NCBI GenBank assembly: GCA_945919465.1 | Contig: CAMEJG010000018.1 | Span: 1-37,820 of the forward strand | DNA: 37,820 bases | Direction of reading: 5' to 3' | Source of the DNA: an uncultured Anaeroplasma sp. | GTDB taxonomy: Bacteria; Bacillota_I; Bacilli_A; Acholeplasmatales; Anaeroplasmataceae | Shown: positions 2,808 to 11,797 of the stretch, one piece after another | Layout: the number at the start of each line of letters is the position of its first letter | How positions within the stretch are numbered: position 1 is the stretch's first letter | Position numbers and translations under genes: made by a program | Notes under the pieces: generated by a model | What the model was told of the DNA's origin: nothing | Seen by the model: the letters and a program-made list of their open reading frames with translations, nothing else | The model's database searches: none

Positions 2808-4940
2808 ATGAAATTTAAAAAAAGTTTATTAATTGGTTTTACAACCTTATCATTAATTGGACTAGCATCTTGTGGTGGAGGAGGAAGTAGTTCAAGTAGT
2901 GTATCTTCAACTACTACAACAACACCAACTACAGAGCTTACTGATTCGGAAATATATGATAAGGTATTAAAAGAATTCTACACTGCCTATAGTGAAGCAC
3001 TTGATACTGATATACTAGATGAAAGATATGCCAAAATGGCAATAGCTGAAGCTAAGCTATTAGAATCAGGAGTAATGCTTCCTACAACTACTCAAGGAGG
3101 ATTATATTCTTTATCTAGAGTAGCTCCATATACCTTTGATTATGCAAAAGCAGGAAATGACTCTGATAGATTTCATCAGGCTTTAGTTACAAAGGAAATA
3201 ATTAAGGTGCAAGATAGAATTACTATGAAAAACAAATGGGAAGAGCTTAAAGGCTCTGGGAATTATATTAGCTGGGCAAAAAATTATTTAGAGACTCATA
3301 ATTATACATTAGAGGATACTTATAATATTTCATATTCTTCAAATCCTAAAACATGGGATGTATTAGCAACATCATTATCAGCTGATAGTAATGCGATTAT
3401 TAATACCTATGATGGATTAGTAGAATATGATGTTGAAGGTGTATTAAAGCCAGCATTAGCTGATTCCTGGACTATCTCTGATGATGGTTTGACCTATACA
3501 TTTAAGATTAGACAAGGAGTAAGATGGGTTGATTCTCAAGGAAGAGAGCTTTCAGAGGTTACTGCTGATGATTTTGTTGCAGGTTTTCAACATATGCTAG
3601 ATGCGAAAGGTGGACTTGAATATTTAGTTGACGGATTAATTGCTGGTGTTTCTGAATATTTAGAAACTCAAGATAATTTTGAAGCTGTTGGAGTAAAGGC
3701 TATTGATAATTACACTTTAGAATATACATTAACTGAAAAGACAAGTTATTTTATTTCAATGCTAGGGTATGGAGTATTTGCCCCAATGAATAGAGCATTT
3801 TATGAATCATTAGGTGGTAAATTTGGAAGTAGCTATGATTCAGCTAGTAGTGATTATAAATATGGAAAATCAGAAGATACCATCGCTTATTGTGGTCCAT
3901 ATTTAGTGTCTAATAATACAGCTAATTCAATGATTTCATATACATTAAATCCATTATATTGGAATAAAGATAATATAAATGTAAAAAATATAAACTGGTA
4001 CTTTAATGATGGTACTGATGTAACTAAGTCATATACAGATTTTAAGGCTGGAACAATTGATGTATGTAGTTTATCTTCATCAACCATTGAAACAGCAAAA
4101 GCAGAGGGTTTATTTGATGATTATTCATATATTTCATCAACAACTACAACTACATTTATGACATTTTATAATGTAAATCGTAAAGCTTATTCTAATAGTA
4201 ATGATAATTCTTTAACATCATCTAAAACAGAAAATGAAAGAATTGCTACAAACAAAGCATTACAGAATCAAAACTTCCGTTTGGCATTATCATATGCTAC
4301 TAATAGAATTCTTTATAATGCTCAAAAGGTTGGTGATTCTTTAGCTACTACATCATTAAGAAACACCTATACTCCTGGAGATTTTGTTAGGTTAAGTGAG
4401 GATACTCAGGTATTAATTAATGGTGAGGAAGTATTATTTAAAAAGGGTACTTATTATGGTGAAATCATTCAGGCACAAATTGATAAAGATGGATATCAAA
4501 TTAAGGTTTGGGATGAAAATATGAATGATGGGTTAGGATCTAGTGATGGCTTTGATGGCTGGTATAATGTTGAAAATGCTAAATCACATTTAGATAAGGC
4601 TATAGAAGAATTAAAAGATTTAAATATTTCAAAAACTAATCCAATTAAAATTGATTATCCATATTTTTCAAATTCAAGTGTTTATACTAATGTAGCTAAT
4701 GCTTATAAGAAGTCAATTGAAGAGGCTTTAGAAGGAAAAGTAATAATTAATTTAGTTGCTTGTACGAGTCAATCAGAATGGTTAAATGCAGGATATACAA
4801 CAACATTAGGCTCTGAGGCAAATTATGATATGTATGATTTATCTGGATGGGGACCTGATTATTTAGATCCTTCTACATATTTAGATACATTTCTTCCTGA
4901 TGGAAATGGATTTATGACTAAATGCATCGGATTATTTTAA
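2808..4940 (+). CDS. oppA: Oligopeptide-binding lipoprotein, apparently C-terminally truncated
   Basis: A 710-residue solute-binding lipoprotein of the SBP_bac_5 (OppA/AmiA) family that captures peptides outside the membrane for the permease encoded next. The signal peptide has a lipobox GLASC with Cys22 as the lipidation site, then a Gly/Ser/Thr-rich linker to about residue 43. The family core begins near residue 175 after a helical N-terminal extension: NTYDGLVEYD, then ALADSWTISDDGLTYTFKIR and VTADDFVAGFQHMLD. Near the end, the conserved WGPDYLDPSTYLDTF block is followed by only about 15 residues; relatives normally continue for roughly 100 or more. No continuation is found downstream, where a hairpin and oppB follow. 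The start has AGAGGA seven bases upstream. Confidence 0.92.
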   Translation: MKFKKSLLIGFTTLSLIGLASCGGGGSSSSSVSSTTTTTPTTELTDSEIYDKVLKEFYTAYSEALDTDILDERYAKMAIAEAKLLESGVMLPTTTQGGLYSLSRVAPYTFDYAKAGNDSDRFHQALVTKEIIKVQDRITMKNKWEELKGSGNYISWAKNYLETHNYTLEDTYNISYSSNPKTWDVLATSLSADSNAIINTYDGLVEYDVEGVLKPALADSWTISDDGLTYTFKIRQGVRWVDSQGRELSEVTADDFVAGFQHMLDAKGGLEYLVDGLIAGVSEYLETQDNFEAVGVKAIDNYTLEYTLTEKTSYFISMLGYGVFAPMNRAFYESLGGKFGSSYDSASSDYKYGKSEDTIAYCGPYLVSNNTANSMISYTLNPLYWNKDNINVKNINWYFNDGTDVTKSYTDFKAGTIDVCSLSSSTIETAKAEGLFDDYSYISSTTTTTFMTFYNVNRKAYSNSNDNSLTSSKTENERIATNKALQNQNFRLALSYATNRILYNAQKVGDSLATTSLRNTYTPGDFVRLSEDTQVLINGEEVLFKKGTYYGEIIQAQIDKDGYQIKVWDENMNDGLGSSDGFDGWYNVENAKSHLDKAIEELKDLNISKTNPIKIDYPYFSNSSVYTNVANAYKKSIEEALEGKVIINLVACTSQSEWLNAGYTTTLGSEANYDMYDLSGWGPDYLDPSTYLDTFLPDGNGFMTKCIGLF

Positions 4941-4949
4941 AATAATATT

Positions 4950-4974
4950 AAGGGTGGGGAATAACCACCCTTTT
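4950..4974 (+). terminator. Intercistronic hairpin between oppA and oppB (leaky terminator)
   Basis: Perfect 8-bp stem AAGGGTGG / CCACCCTT (4950-4957 and 4965-4972) with a 7-base loop, followed by only four T. The weak T run suggests partial termination or 3'-end stabilisation, so that the binding protein is made in excess over the permease. Confidence 0.6.
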
Positions 4975-4993
4975 ATGCATAAAGGAGATTATT

Positions 4994-6580
4994 ATGTTAA
5001 GGTATTTATTTAAAAGATTATTTTATGGTTTGATATCATTAATAATTATTGTAGCTATTGTAATGGTATTGGTTTATTCATTATTAGATAGAAGCTTAGT
5101 CTTTGCTAATGATGGAGTTTATTTAAAAGCTCAAAATAATAGTAAAGAAATATATAAATATTCAAAATGGGAGGAATATGGCTATTTAGACTATGTCACT
5201 TATAATGAATATTTAGATGAATGTGTAAAAAATAATTCATTAGATTCTAGTTTAAAAAGTTCTGTTTCATCTTTTGGAAATACTGTAAAAGAAGACTCAT
5301 TGCTTACTAGCATAAATCAGGAATGGATAAATAAATTTAAAAATGAATATGAAAAATTAGGATATACCGTAGTTAGATTAGATACTATTTATCAAACGGG
5401 TAATAAGGTTGCAACAGGAGGACAAAAACAATATTTTGCTTATAAGGATAAGCCATTAATTACAAGATTATTCACATATTTTAGTAATTTAATAACTATT
5501 GATAATATCCATTATGCTGAAGGTGATATTGAAAATAGAGGAATTAGTTTTACATTTTTTGATCCTGTATATGGTGGTAAGGTATTTTCTCCTGCCATTA
5601 TTGGAAATGGTACTAAGCATAAATATCTTTTATATTTTGATAATAAATTTCCATTTATTCATCAAAATTTAATTACCTTAAATTTAGGAGTTTCCTATTC
5701 AATTAATCAAGGTATTGATATTACATCTATAATGTTTGATAGTCAGGGTAGTAAAAAATTAGATAATGTAATATATCCATCTGGAGTTAATGAAATATCT
5801 GCTGATGATTTACATTCATTAACTTATGTTAAGGGGTCATATGATTCAGGGCTTTCAACAATCAAAAATTATTTTATTGATGACTATACTAATGTTAAAA
5901 CCAATAAGGTGGGTTTATCTAGAACTGGCTATTCATTTGTTATTGGCATAATTTCAGTAATTATTACTTATTTATTAGGTGTTCCTTTAGGAATAATGAT
6001 GGCAAGAAAAAAGGACAAGCTTATAGATAAGCTTGGTACTATTTATATTGTATTTATAATGGCTGTACCTTCTTTGGCTTATATTTTTATGTTTAAGTCA
6101 ATAGGTGGAGCAATATTTAATTTACCTACAGTATTTAATACTGATAGTAGTAATTTATTAATGTATGTATTACCAATAGTATCCTTGGCTTTACCATTAA
6201 TGGCTAATACTATGAAATGGTTAAGACGATATATGATAGATCAAATGAATTCTGATTACGTAAAATTCGCAAGAGCTGGTGGTTTATCTGAATCAGAGAT
6301 ATTTAATAAGCATATTTTAAAAAATGCATTAGTTCCCATAATTCATGGAATACCTCAAGCTGTAGTTGGTTCTTTAATTGGTGCAGTAATAACTGAGGCA
6401 GTGTATACTGTACCAGGCACAGGTGGATTATTAACAGAAGCTATTAAACAATATGATAATGGTGTTATTGTAGGATTAGCTTTATTTTATGCAGCTTTAT
6501 CAATTATATCAGTAATTTTAGGGGATATTTTGATGTATTTTGTGGATCCTAGAATTTCATTTAAGGAAAAGGGGGTATAG
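4994..6580 (+). CDS. oppB: Oligopeptide ABC transporter permease with large ectodomain (OppB/AmiC type)
   Basis: A 528-residue inner-membrane permease subunit. Membrane helix 1 covers about residues 9-31. A soluble, presumably extracytoplasmic segment of about 275 residues follows, then the standard five-helix BPD_transp_1 core from about residue 310. The EAA loop that contacts the ATPases is ARAGGLSESEIFNKH at about 426-440, followed by the conserved VPGTGGLL. Typical OppB is about 310 residues; the streptococcal AmiC permease is also enlarged (about 500) between helices 1 and 2, so AmiC is the better comparison. The ribosome-binding site AAAGGAG lies just before ATG 4994. OppC starts one base after the stop codon. 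Confidence 0.93.
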   Translation: MLRYLFKRLFYGLISLIIIVAIVMVLVYSLLDRSLVFANDGVYLKAQNNSKEIYKYSKWEEYGYLDYVTYNEYLDECVKNNSLDSSLKSSVSSFGNTVKEDSLLTSINQEWINKFKNEYEKLGYTVVRLDTIYQTGNKVATGGQKQYFAYKDKPLITRLFTYFSNLITIDNIHYAEGDIENRGISFTFFDPVYGGKVFSPAIIGNGTKHKYLLYFDNKFPFIHQNLITLNLGVSYSINQGIDITSIMFDSQGSKKLDNVIYPSGVNEISADDLHSLTYVKGSYDSGLSTIKNYFIDDYTNVKTNKVGLSRTGYSFVIGIISVIITYLLGVPLGIMMARKKDKLIDKLGTIYIVFIMAVPSLAYIFMFKSIGGAIFNLPTVFNTDSSNLLMYVLPIVSLALPLMANTMKWLRRYMIDQMNSDYVKFARAGGLSESEIFNKHILKNALVPIIHGIPQAVVGSLIGAVITEAVYTVPGTGGLLTEAIKQYDNGVIVGLALFYAALSIISVILGDILMYFVDPRISFKEKGV

Positions 6581-6581
6581 T

Positions 6582-7592
6582 ATGAATATGGAATTAATTG
6601 ATTTAAGTAATTTAAATATGACAACTGAAGAATTATTTAAACTAGAAGATAATTCAAATGTAATTTTAGAAGAAATAAATGCACCAAAATATTCCTATTG
6701 GAAAAGTGTATTTAGAGTATTCTTTAGTAAAAAAATAAATGTAGTAATATTAATTCTTTTAGCAATAGTATTAATATTTACATATATATACCCTTTGTTT
6801 TCTAATTATAATCGTTTTGAATTTTTATTAGATAATAATTCAAAGCATTTATATCCTTTAAATGCAATGAAATATCATAATGAATTTAGTATAAAATGGC
6901 TATTTGGTTCGGGCTCATCGGGAGAATCAACCTTTGATGCATTATGGGATGGAGCTAGAGTCTCTATTACTCTTGCGGTAATATGTGCAATAATTAATAT
7001 GACTATTGGTTCTATTATTGGAGCTATTTGGGGCTATTCAAAGAAATTTGATAGTATTATGATGAGTATTTATAATGTTATTGCTAATATTCCATACATT
7101 TTATATATTTCAGTATTTGTATTAATATTCTCTTCAGGATTTTGGCCTTTTGTTTTCGCATTAACTTTAACTGGATGGCTAGGAATAGCTTATTTTATAA
7201 GAACTCAAGTAATTATTATTAGAGATAGAGAATATAATCTAGCTTCTCGTACACTAGGTACTCCAATATATAGATTAATAGGGAAAAATATTATGCCATA
7301 TTTAACCTCAATTATTGTTACCTTAGTCGCAACAGAAATTCCTTCATATATATCTTATGAAGCATTTCTATCTTATTTAGGTTTAGGATTAAATGGAGGA
7401 ATAAACGGAGATACTACAAAAGGGGTTACTTCATTAGGAAATATGATTGCTCAAGCTCAAAGTGCTATGGTTACACCTGGGTGGGAATTTGAATTTTGGG
7501 CTCCAGTATTAGTGGCTTCATTTGTTACTATTGTTTTATATGTAGTAGGTCAAAATCTAGGTGATGCTAGTGATCCAAGAACTCATATGTAG
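6582..7592 (+). CDS. oppC: Oligopeptide ABC transporter permease (OppC/AmiD type)
   Basis: A 336-residue membrane permease, partner of OppB. An N-terminal cytosolic segment of about 40 residues leads to the OppC_N pattern YWKSVFRVFFSKKINVVILI with helix 1 at about 53-75. The BPD_transp_1 core of five helices starts near residue 120. Its EAA loop is ASRTLGTPIYRLIGKNIMP near 220-238. It ends DASDPRTHM, like the usual OppC end (LRDALDPR). ATG 6582 is chosen because AAAAGGGGG ends six bases upstream; the frame is open further upstream, but those starts fall inside oppB. OppD follows nine bases after the stop, with its ribosome-binding site overlapping the TAG. Confidence 0.94.
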   Translation: MNMELIDLSNLNMTTEELFKLEDNSNVILEEINAPKYSYWKSVFRVFFSKKINVVILILLAIVLIFTYIYPLFSNYNRFEFLLDNNSKHLYPLNAMKYHNEFSIKWLFGSGSSGESTFDALWDGARVSITLAVICAIINMTIGSIIGAIWGYSKKFDSIMMSIYNVIANIPYILYISVFVLIFSSGFWPFVFALTLTGWLGIAYFIRTQVIIIRDREYNLASRTLGTPIYRLIGKNIMPYLTSIIVTLVATEIPSYISYEAFLSYLGLGLNGGINGDTTKGVTSLGNMIAQAQSAMVTPGWEFEFWAPVLVASFVTIVLYVVGQNLGDASDPRTHM

Positions 7593-7601
7593 GAGGTTTA
7601 T

Positions 7602-9350
7602 ATGAAAAATAATAATATCTTATTATCCTTAAAAAATGTATGGGTTAAATTTAAGGTTAGAGGAAGAGAATTAACGGCTATTAGAGGAATTTCTTTAGAT
7701 ATTTATGAAAATGAAGCTATTGCGATAGTTGGTGAGTCGGGTTCTGGTAAATCAGTATTAACTAAAGCATTATCTGGTATGCTTGATTCTAATGGGTATA
7801 TTAGTGAGGGGGAAATATTATTTAATAATAATGAATTAAGTGAAACTAATGCTAAATTAAATTATAGAGCTAAAAGAATTATTAATATTGTAGCTAATAA
7901 ATTAAATAGATTTTCTAAGCTTGAAAATGGAGCTTTAATTTATCAAAAAATAATTGAATTGAATAATGATAAAAATAAAAGAATGAGATTAAAAGATGAA
8001 GAACAATTAGAATTTGATAAAAAAATTAATTCACTTAATTATGAATTAATTGAATTAAAAAATCAAAAACAAGCATTAGATAATTTTAAAGATAAGGAAC
8101 AAATAAAAGTATTAAAAATTAAGATAAATAATATTAAGAATGAAATATATAGTATTAATTTAGAAAAGAAATTATTAAATAAACATTATATATTAGAAGC
8201 AAAAAATGATAAGGACTATTTAAATCAATATAATAAAACTATATCTAAATTAAATAAGGAATATAAAGAACTAATTAATTTAGATATTGATGAAGAAATA
8301 AAAAAAAGAAATTTAATTATAGCTAAAGAAATATATTTATCAATAGGAAGATATAATATTTTATTACAATATAAATATATTATTAAACTATTAATAGCTT
8401 TTAAAAGGGCTATGAGAATAGGTATTGATTTATCAAATGAAGATTTACTAAATAAGGTATTTGATAATGTTTTATTTAGAGTTAAGTACATTAAAGAAGA
8501 AGATAATTTAATAAAAGGAATTTGTATTTTAGATTTAGCTAAAATTAAATATACTAAGGATTGGCAACAAATAAGAGGAAGTAAAATAGCTACAGTATTT
8601 CAAGACCCTATGACTTCATTAAACCCTATTGTTACAATAGGAAAACAAATAACCTCAATTATTATGAAGCATCAAAATTGTAATGTTATTGAGGCTAGAA
8701 AAAGAGCGATTATATTGATGAAAAAGGTTGGTATTTCTAATCCAGAAAAAAGATTTGATGATTATCCATTTCAATATTCTGGCGGCATGCGACAAAGAAT
8801 AGTAATAGCTATTGCTTTATCCTGCAAGCCAAAGGTTTTAATATGTGATGAACCTACCACTGCATTAGATGTAACAATTCAAGCTCAAATATTAAAATTA
8901 ATTAAAGATTTACAAAAGGAATTTAATTTTACAATTATTTTTATTACTCATGATTTAGGAGTAGTTGCGAATATCGCTGATAGAGTGGCAGTATTATATG
9001 CAGGACAAATTGTAGAGCTTGGAAGTGCTAGAGAAATATTTTATGATCCTAGACATCCTTATACCTGGGCTTTATTATCCTCACTTCCTCAGCTTTCAAA
9101 AAAAGGAGAAAAATTATATTCTATAAATGGTACTCCACCATCACTTTATAACAAAATAATAGGAGATCCCTTCGCATTAAGAAATCCTTATTGTTTAAAA
9201 ATAGATACTATAATGGAGCCTCCATTATTTAAAATATCAGAAACGCATTATGCTAAAACCTGGTTATGTGACCCTAGAGCTCCTAAAATACCAAAACCAG
9301 ATATTATAACTAATATTCATGAAAAGCTTTTAAAGGCTTTTAATATATAA
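7602..9350 (+). CDS. oppD: Oligopeptide ABC transporter ATPase OppD with large helical insertion
   Basis: A 582-residue cytosolic ATPase energising peptide import with OppF. Walker A is GESGSGKS (44-51), the Q-loop is VFQDPMTSLNP with Gln334, the signature is YSGGMRQ (392-398), Walker B is VLICDEPT (412-419) and the switch His is His450. The C-terminal oligo_HPY domain has HPYTWALLSSLPQL and the spaced Cys531, His549 and Cys556. OppD proteins are usually 330-360 residues. Here about 230 residues (about 85-315), rich in Lys, Glu, Asn and Ile and strongly predicted helical or coiled-coil by eye, separate Walker A from the Q-loop. All catalytic motifs are intact, so this looks like a tolerated insertion. 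The start has AGGAGG. Confidence 0.93.
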   Translation: MKNNNILLSLKNVWVKFKVRGRELTAIRGISLDIYENEAIAIVGESGSGKSVLTKALSGMLDSNGYISEGEILFNNNELSETNAKLNYRAKRIINIVANKLNRFSKLENGALIYQKIIELNNDKNKRMRLKDEEQLEFDKKINSLNYELIELKNQKQALDNFKDKEQIKVLKIKINNIKNEIYSINLEKKLLNKHYILEAKNDKDYLNQYNKTISKLNKEYKELINLDIDEEIKKRNLIIAKEIYLSIGRYNILLQYKYIIKLLIAFKRAMRIGIDLSNEDLLNKVFDNVLFRVKYIKEEDNLIKGICILDLAKIKYTKDWQQIRGSKIATVFQDPMTSLNPIVTIGKQITSIIMKHQNCNVIEARKRAIILMKKVGISNPEKRFDDYPFQYSGGMRQRIVIAIALSCKPKVLICDEPTTALDVTIQAQILKLIKDLQKEFNFTIIFITHDLGVVANIADRVAVLYAGQIVELGSAREIFYDPRHPYTWALLSSLPQLSKKGEKLYSINGTPPSLYNKIIGDPFALRNPYCLKIDTIMEPPLFKISETHYAKTWLCDPRAPKIPKPDIITNIHEKLLKAFNI

Positions 9351-9362
9351 ATGGAGGCATAA

Positions 9363-10601
9363 ATGAAAAACGATAATAAAAAAGAGATATTATTATCACT
9401 TAAAAATGTTGATATTTCCTTTGGAAAAGGAGAAAAAAGAATTAAGGTAGTAAATAATGCTACATTTGATATTTATAAAGGGGAAACATTTTCTTTAGTA
9501 GGTGAATCAGGAAGTGGAAAAACTACTATTGGTAGAGCAATTATAAGAGTGAATCCTTTATCTAATGGAGAAATCATTTTTAAAGGAGAAAGAATATCAG
9601 GAAAAATATCAAAAAAATTAGAAAAAGAGGTTATTAGAAATATTCAAATGGTATTTCAAGATCCTGCTGCATCATTAAATGAAAGAGCTACAGTTGATTA
9701 TATTATTAGTGAAGGATTATATAATTTCCATCTATATAAGGATGAAAAGGATAGAATTAATAAGGTTGAAAATATTATTAAAGAGGTAGGTTTATTAAAA
9801 GAGCATTTAACTAGATATCCACATGAATTTTCAGGTGGTCAAAGACAAAGAATAGGACTTGCAAGAGCTATAGTAATGGAGCCTGAATTGATTATTGCAG
9901 ATGAACCTATTTCAGCACTTGATGTTTCTATTAGAGCTCAGGTTTTAAATTTATTAAAAAAATTTCAAGAAGAAAGAAATTTAACATATTTATTTATAGC
10001 TCATGATCTATCAATAGTACGTTTTATCTCTGATAGAATCGGAGTAATATATAAAGGTGATATCGTAGAAATTGCTCCAAGTGAAGAGCTATTTAATTTT
10101 CCTCTTCATCCTTATACTAGATCATTAATTTCAGCAATTCCTATTCCAGATCCAGAACTTGAAAAGAATAAGCTATTAAATAACTATGATCCATCTATTC
10201 ATGATTATTCAAAAGATAAACCTAATCTTGTAGATATTGGTAATAATCATTATGTTTTTGGAAATAAAAATGAAATAGAAGAATATAAAAGAATAAGAAA
10301 AGAAGGAAATATGCCAAAATCTATAATAATTTTAGATTCTAATGATGAAAGACTTAATCAAAATATTATAGTAGAGGATAATTATATAGATGAAATCAAT
10401 CCTAATGATACTTCTTCATTTATTTATACAATACTAGGATTTATATTTCCTTTTATTGGATTAATTGCGATGTTAATATTTAAAAAAATGAATTATATAA
10501 AAACATATTATTCTTTAAAAAAGGGAGTAATATATGGCTTTGGTGCTATTGGAATTATTGTATTAATATTTGTTTTTTCATTTATACTAGCTATTATATA
10601 G
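9363..10601 (+). CDS. oppF: Oligopeptide ABC transporter ATPase OppF with C-terminal two-helix membrane anchor
   Basis: A 412-residue ATPase paired with OppD. Walker A is GESGSGKT (47-54), the Q-loop is [11 protein letters not shown] (Gln99), the signature is FSGGQRQ (156-162), Walker B is LIIADEP (176-182) and the switch His is His214. After [12 protein letters not shown] the tail has YSKDKPNLV and NHYVFGN, known in the AmiF/OppF branch, and would normally end near residue 310. Instead a charged linker leads to two hydrophobic helices at about 352-374 and 388-411, separated by a basic loop. The pair resembles the PxxGLI...KK membrane modules of some small Firmicutes membrane proteins. ABC importer ATPases are normally peripheral proteins, so a built-in anchor is unusual. 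The ribosome-binding site is GGAGG. Confidence 0.92.
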
Positions 10602-10633: not shown

Positions 10634-11797
10634 ATGAGAATATTATTATTTGTTAGTTTTTTTACTATTGCAATATTATCATTAACCTTTGGAATAGTAT
10701 CACTATTTAAAGGAGATTCTGGTTATCAAATAATAACAACTGGTAATGATGAAAATTCTTTTATGGATGATGAATTAGTACTTAATTATTATATTGGTAA
10801 TAATACTAATGAAAATGAATTAAAAGAAATAACTAAATTATATTCTGATTTAGTTTCATATTCTTATAAATTATTAGATTCAGAAATATTATATGATGAT
10901 ATTTATAATATTGCATATATTAATAATCATTTAAATGAAGAAATAGAAATAGATTCTATTTTATATAATTCATTTAAAATGATAAAAGAATATGATTTAT
11001 TATTTATATTATATTTAGGACCATTATATTATGAAACTACAGGTATTATTTATAATAGTAGTAGCTTGGATTTGTTTAGCCCTTTATATAATAATGAAGT
11101 TAATAAATATTTTAATGATATTATTCATTATGTAAATAATAATAGTATTGAATTAGTTTTATTGGATAATAATCAAATAAAATTAGTAATTAATAATGAT
11201 TATTTAGATTATATTAAGAATAATAATGTTAAAAATATTATAAGCTTTGGTTGGATTAAAAATGCAATAATGGTTGATTATATAGCTAATAATCTAATGT
11301 CAAAGGGATATATCTATGGAATATTATCAAGTGTAGATGGATACACTAGAATTTTAGATAATACTAATGAATATAATTATAGTATTATTGATTATGATAA
11401 AAGAAGTTATATTTGTGCAACAATAAAATATAATAATAGTTATTCTATTGTTAATTTAAGAAATTATATTTATTTAGCTGAGGATTATTATAGAATATTA
11501 TATATTAATGAAGAAGAAATATATTCATATTATTTAGATAGTAATGGTAAATATTTAAAAGAAAATAGAAATATTATCAATTATTCACTCTATTATTCTT
11601 GTTTAGAAATATCACTTAATATGTTTGATTTATTCTTTAATGAAATAAGTATTGATGAAATAAATAGAATCTATGAAAAAGAAATATTTACATTATATTG
11701 TGATAATAAGATAGTATATTATAATGATAAAAATTGTAATATCTATAATTTTGAAGAAGTAGACGGAATTAGATATAATAAAAAATATATAAAATAA
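10634..11797 (+). CDS. Membrane-anchored, degenerate ApbE-like protein (probable pseudoenzyme)
   Basis: A 387-residue protein (from ATG 10634) with one N-terminal membrane helix (about 2-25) and a soluble domain. I match it by eye to the FAD:protein FMN transferase (ApbE) fold. The block IYNIAYINNH...YNSFKMIKEYDLLF...LGPLYY (about 90-133) follows ApbE's sdl-x-x-lN...FDpalGpL region. FGWIKNAIMVDYIANNL (205-221) follows GGIAKGYAVD, and YYLDSNGK (299-306) follows HIIDPKTG. The catalytic His, the Gly after the Lys and the second metal-binding Asp are not conserved, so flavin transfer is doubtful. It is extremely AT-rich (Asn, Ile, Tyr). ATG 10634 lacks a ribosome-binding site; GGTGGTGAT at 10601-10609 would instead serve an in-frame ATT at 10613. 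It lies last in the opp operon. Confidence 0.6.
   Translation: MRILLFVSFFTIAILSLTFGIVSLFKGDSGYQIITTGNDENSFMDDELVLNYYIGNNTNENELKEITKLYSDLVSYSYKLLDSEILYDDIYNIAYINNHLNEEIEIDSILYNSFKMIKEYDLLFILYLGPLYYETTGIIYNSSSLDLFSPLYNNEVNKYFNDIIHYVNNNSIELVLLDNNQIKLVINNDYLDYIKNNNVKNIISFGWIKNAIMVDYIANNLMSKGYIYGILSSVDGYTRILDNTNEYNYSIIDYDKRSYICATIKYNNSYSIVNLRNYIYLAEDYYRILYINEEEIYSYYLDSNGKYLKENRNIINYSLYYSCLEISLNMFDLFFNEISIDEINRIYEKEIFTLYCDNKIVYYNDKNCNIYNFEEVDGIRYNKKYIK

Follow-up and report, generated by a model that had tools for sequence, protein, structure and literature searches.

An open reading frame (ORF) located immediately downstream of a complete oligopeptide importer operon in an uncultured Anaeroplasma sp. 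encodes a degenerate relative of the ApbE proteins, here designated psApbE (Opp-associated ApbE-fold pseudoenzyme), which is probably a non-catalytic, membrane-anchored sixth subunit that scaffolds or gates the delivery of peptides in an expanded OppABCDF importer. The known activities of ApbE proteins are flavin transfer and FAD hydrolysis, and our searches of the literature found neither a description of the psApbE family nor a non-catalytic ApbE branch used in transport.

The whole stretch of DNA analyzed (37,820 nucleotides, hereafter the window) carries the complete oppABCDF operon at positions 2808-10601, with the psApbE ORF immediately 3' of it (Table 1). The five neighboring genes constitute a complete set for the OppABCDF importer, and the best NCBIfam match of OppF is the Mycoplasma-type model NF043078. 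Compared with the classical five-protein Opp system, this importer adds psApbE, the 230-aa insert in OppD and a long external region of OppB, as well as a two-helix tail of OppF in the clade to which the window belongs. Judging from a reading of the sequence, translation of psApbE probably begins at an in-frame ATT (10613), which lies 7 nt 3' of an AGGTGG motif overlapping the oppF stop codon. Downstream of psApbE lie a CYTH gene on the opposite strand and then the genes for NAD kinase (NADK) and ClpP, and the order TrpRS, opp, psApbE, CYTH and NADK is repeated in related species. Named members of the group to which the host genome belongs are Acholeplasmatales and Anaeroplasma metagenome-assembled genomes (MAGs), several of them from rumen or gut. 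An ORF for a PD-(D/E)XK nuclease family transposase is also present at 362-1201, upstream of the TrpRS gene.

Table 1. Positions of psApbE, its conserved or degenerate blocks, and the neighboring Opp components in the window.
Feature	Position	Strand	Remarks
psApbE (Opp-associated ApbE-fold pseudoenzyme), 387 aa	10634..11797	+	ATG 10634, stop 11797
N-terminal transmembrane anchor of psApbE, aa 2-25	10637..10708	+	Model helix 2-25; hydrophobic; Arg ahead of helix
NIAYINNHLNEEI block of psApbE, aa 92-104	10907..10945	+	Profile alignment
ISFGWIKNAIMVD, aa 203-215, degenerate equivalent of DLGGIAKGYA	11240..11278	+	Lys to Asn, Gly to Ala
YSYYLDSNGK, aa 314-323, degenerate equivalent of YHHIIDPxTG	11573..11602	+	Catalytic His to Tyr
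OppA, oligopeptide-binding protein, 710 aa	2808..4940	+	SBP_bac_5 E 6.5e-46
OppB, permease, 528 aa	4994..6580	+	About 270 aa between TM1 and conserved permease core
OppC, permease	6540..7592	+	Real start probably downstream of 6540
OppD, ATPase, 582 aa	7602..9350	+	
OppD helical insert, 230 aa, between Walker A and Q-loop	7836..8525	+	Co-occurs with psApbE
OppF, ATPase, 412 aa	9363..10601	+	
OppF C-terminal tail, two hydrophobic helices (PIHDTG...CKKG)	10398..10598	+	Conserved in window clade

Relationship of psApbE to ApbE proteins

The first-pass annotation had described the product of 10634-11797, by eye, as a degenerate ApbE-like protein. As a single sequence, psApbE had no match in Pfam, NCBIfam or PDB, and a first scan of contigs with this sequence found no relative, while a later alignment-based scan succeeded. 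Because single-sequence searches miss any relative, profiles were needed to evaluate the ApbE assignment. A profile of 11 psApbE members of the genus (alignment A1; 22-34% identity to the window protein, with no genuine ApbE included) retrieved genuine ApbE proteins of a sister family over nearly the full length (E 2.8e-10), several of which adjoin Rnf-type genes. Profile-profile comparison (hhalign) between the psApbE family and 29 genuine ApbE proteins gave an E value of 1.2e-18 over 288 columns, and a second comparison of the family with genuine ApbE gave 1.6e-16. The best sequence match in PDB was ApbE TM1553, aligned in two collinear stretches (E 0.2 with A1 and 0.0024 with the wider alignment A5). 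At the level of Pfam, the family falls below detection, which distinguishes it from the ApbE/Ftp/FmnB proteins: the ApbE model (PF02424) gave no match for the window protein, and matches for 2 of the 11 relatives (best E 0.009) stayed below the gathering cut-off.

The three ApbE blocks that had been recognized by eye, and their order, are borne out by these comparisons, as each of them falls where the psApbE and ApbE profiles align: ILYLGPLYY is paired with PFIGRLAHLW, ISFGWIKNAIMV with IDLGGIAKGYAT, and IYSYYLDSNGK with YHHLINPFSGY. The most conserved block of the psApbE family, NIAYINNHLNEEI, is aligned with NIYxLN of ApbE, and ApbE 1vrm, the top PDB match, spans this block.

The AlphaFold model of psApbE (pLDDT 73.6, pTM 0.77, with low-confidence loops at residues 128-141 and 277-306), together with the family profiles, confirmed the relation to ApbE. 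All of the 30 best Foldseek matches of the model were ApbE proteins, with an E value of 5.6e-9 for the top one versus 2.6e-3 for the first non-ApbE protein, and VIA-align superposed the model on Ftp from T. pallidum with a Z score of 23.0 and an rmsd of 3.1 Å over 300 residues. The only crystal structures matched well by the model were those of ApbE/Ftp/FmnB (FAD:protein FMN transferase, PF02424), with which psApbE shares the full-length fold (Z 19-23), the order of conserved blocks and a predicted extracytoplasmic location with an N-terminal anchor. However, the anchor is a transmembrane helix instead of the usual lipobox, as a lipobox-like pattern was found in 4 of 59 members and is absent from the window protein, and the Arg residue ahead of this helix is conserved in alignments A1, A2 and A5. 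According to the model, psApbE is composed of a single transmembrane anchor at the N terminus, followed by an extracytoplasmic domain with the ApbE fold.

Loss of catalytic residues and conservation of the family

Residues at functional positions were counted in a joint alignment of 49 psApbE proteins and 29 genuine ApbE enzymes, which reveals that psApbE, unlike ApbE/Ftp/FmnB, is devoid of the catalytic His, the motif Lys, the Gly-rich loop and the metal-site Thr. The catalytic His, which corresponds to His257 in Vibrio ApbE and His273 in Listeria FmnB, is present in 28 of the 29 genuine enzymes versus 0/49 psApbE proteins, and is Tyr in the window protein. The motif Lys and the Gly following it are each present in 29/29 genuine enzymes versus 0/49 psApbE proteins, 43 of which have Asn in place of the Lys; the same counts were obtained for the metal-site Thr, which is Asn in the window protein. 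The triad Ser is found in 29/29 versus 5/49. At the metal-site Asp position, 14 psApbE proteins have Asp and 24 have Glu (acidic in 38/49; Glu in the window protein), and a motif of the family's own, IDF-x-W-x-KNAF, replaces the Gly-rich loop. The first-pass annotation correctly recognized that the His, the Gly after the Lys and the late Asp are changed (they are Tyr, Ala and Glu here, respectively), but its placement of the Lys was not correct: the ApbE Lys aligns with Asn210 rather than with the neighboring Lys209, so that neither the Lys nor the Gly after it is retained. The search for structural similarity that it had proposed matched psApbE to ApbE confidently and over the full length, as described above, and the whole family is without the active-site residues.

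Listeria FmnB is inactive when either His273 or Lys190 is replaced by alanine, and its Asp301 binds Mg (PMC8906456); Lys190 would correspond to the motif lysine, as assigned by the motif and the spacing to Ala187. A review giving the Vibrio ApbE numbering describes Ser, His and Asp as the only conserved residues (PMC12052999). Considering the loss of catalytic residues, FMN transfer by psApbE is very unlikely, and FAD (flavin) binding is also disfavored, because most of the residues that touch the pyrophosphate and the metal are gone. The host genome keeps a genuine ApbE with the full catalytic motif (L001 1444-2406, contig C26), which is neighbored by NusG_II and Hpre_diP_synt_I genes, as are the other genuine ApbE genes of the order. 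Because genomes with psApbE have also retained a genuine ApbE, psApbE is not a replacement for it.

A genome-wide scan with 14 psApbE members, many of the genomes being MAGs, detected 46 loci, which are distributed in Anaeroplasma-like Bacilli, Lachnospiraceae, Oscillospiraceae, Acutalibacter and Christensenella. The psApbE match is covered by one ORF in 45 of the 46 loci, none of which has the ApbE motif, and the Clostridia members that were tested against Pfam and NCBIfam are not described by any model there. Profile matches in other families (G067, G070, G132, G212, G266, G301 and others) represent genuine ApbE and were not counted as psApbE because both the glycine-rich loop and the motif Lys are present. 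The psApbE family is monophyletic with respect to the genuine ApbE proteins sampled (support 0.97) and has a single origin. Its dN/dS values between diverged relatives (0.09-0.27) are near those of OppA and above those of OppB, OppC, OppD and OppF, and psApbE is under purifying selection.

Linkage to the Opp operon and the OppD insert

Whereas ApbE/Ftp/FmnB genes are neighbored by Rnf, Nqr, Nos or EET genes, psApbE genes are located in opp operons. In all 44 of the 45 single-ORF loci that have upstream sequence, psApbE lies directly 3' of oppF, a count that includes a few loci in which oppD and oppF were merged by the ORF caller and one (L171) in which oppF is broken by the assembly. In the G490 lineage, psApbE is convergent to oppF rather than co-directional with it. 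The psApbE of this lineage (L121 3693-5009) is apparently early-branching: its TTGYP block resembles ApbE more closely, and it retains the metal-site Asp; it is possible that this protein, together with the shorter OppD insert found there, represents an intermediate.

OppD is 481-683 aa in length in operons with psApbE (where oppD is alone in its ORF) versus 346-384 aa in those without it, apart from G002, in which the OppD insert is present and the contig ends just after oppF. The insert, which lies between Walker A and the Q-loop, has 230 aa in most cases and is shorter in G490, and its length and sequence are conserved across Bacilli and Clostridia. It is predicted to form a helical domain (pLDDT 94), for which no credible match was found in PDB by either sequence or fold. 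A search of a viral structure library gave no match. Co-occurrence was examined in Bacilli only, the Clostridia loci having been selected by psApbE itself: among 395 genomes, eight are matched by the insert profile, and psApbE is present in these eight and in no others, although these counts are not phylogenetically independent and amount to three families plus one co-loss within a genus. In G011, the sister of the window species in the OppB tree (support 0.99), psApbE and the OppD insert are both cleanly absent, and OppA, OppB, OppC, OppD, OppF and a small two-helix protein remain. The earlier proposal of a pseudoenzyme tied to peptide uptake thus gains backing from both the 44 informative loci and the co-occurrence with the OppD insert. 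A coupling of psApbE to the long OppB alone, which was our first idea, was rejected because G011 and two families of Bacilli, f15 and f22 (probably Erysipelotrichales), have a long OppB without psApbE.

Several variations were also observed in OppF. In another clade of the genus, OppF has no two-helix tail, and psApbE is instead followed by small membrane proteins with two helices. The OppF ORF of G007 (L102, 8721-10391) has an N-terminal extension in which part of the OppD insert domain is repeated as a second copy (E 2.4e-8), and four Opp operons without psApbE (L095, L096, L097 and L098, from G001, G008, G018 and G050, respectively) encode a giant OppF (874-926 aa), approximately 600 aa of which form an N-terminal extension. 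The possibility that the OppF extension in other species of the genus is a fused ApbE domain was discarded, as neither a transmembrane helix nor an ApbE motif could be recognized by eye.

Possible role of psApbE

We infer that psApbE associates physically with the Opp importer. As a probable sixth subunit, it would sit on the outer face of the complex, next to OppA and to the extended outer portion of OppB. There it may scaffold or gate the delivery of peptides, while a connection to the OppD insert and the membrane tail of OppF may be made by its anchor and its short tail in the cytoplasm. A direct contact between psApbE and the OppD insert is not obvious, because the insert is cytoplasmic and the ApbE domain is outside. 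Alternatively, the oppF-adjacent position and the co-occurrence could reflect co-regulation only.

The main rival to the subunit hypothesis is that psApbE serves as an auxiliary receptor for the importer, whose former FAD cleft binds a peptide, flavin or other small molecule. Such a role would agree with the retention of a cleft-bearing fold, with the nearly invariant block NxxYINxHPNE of the family and with dN/dS values like those of OppA, the peptide receptor; however, bulky Trp and Tyr residues occupy positions of the Gly-rich loop and similar rates may only mean surface exposure, and we regard this explanation as rather unlikely. Somewhat less likely again is that psApbE is an assembly or quality-control factor outside the mature importer, which would account for the shared operon and the co-occurrence, as well as for Opp systems without psApbE in G011 and Erysipelotrichales-type genomes. 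However, the coupling is specific to the OppD insert and not to Opp as such, and therefore suggests a feature of the working complex. That psApbE is a divergent but active flavin transferase with migrated catalytic residues, flavinylating an importer subunit or another surface protein, appears quite improbable: although the fold is intact and most members have kept an acidic residue at the metal-site Asp position, the His and Lys essential in FmnB (PMC8906456) are absent from all 49 proteins, as is the metal-site Thr, the Gly-rich loop contains Trp, Asn and Ala, and the same genome possesses a genuine ApbE. Lastly, in spite of the lost catalytic residues and the low identity between members, a decaying ApbE pseudogene can be dismissed almost entirely, being contradicted by the selection test, the intact ORF in nearly all loci, the family-specific conserved motif and the wide spread across two classes.

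Considering that a conserved family accompanies this pump in many gut bacteria, psApbE has probably been repurposed as a part of the pump and is not a gene in decay. It seems reasonably likely that the sixth-subunit arrangement represents an undescribed importer with six components that is widespread in gut Firmicutes, the fold of a flavin transferase having been converted, in a single origin, to a structural subunit that is coupled to a new helical domain of OppD. If psApbE is indeed an Opp subunit, an additional component of one of the best-known ABC importers has been overlooked in common gut bacteria, including Lachnospiraceae, Oscillospiraceae and Anaeroplasma-like Bacilli.
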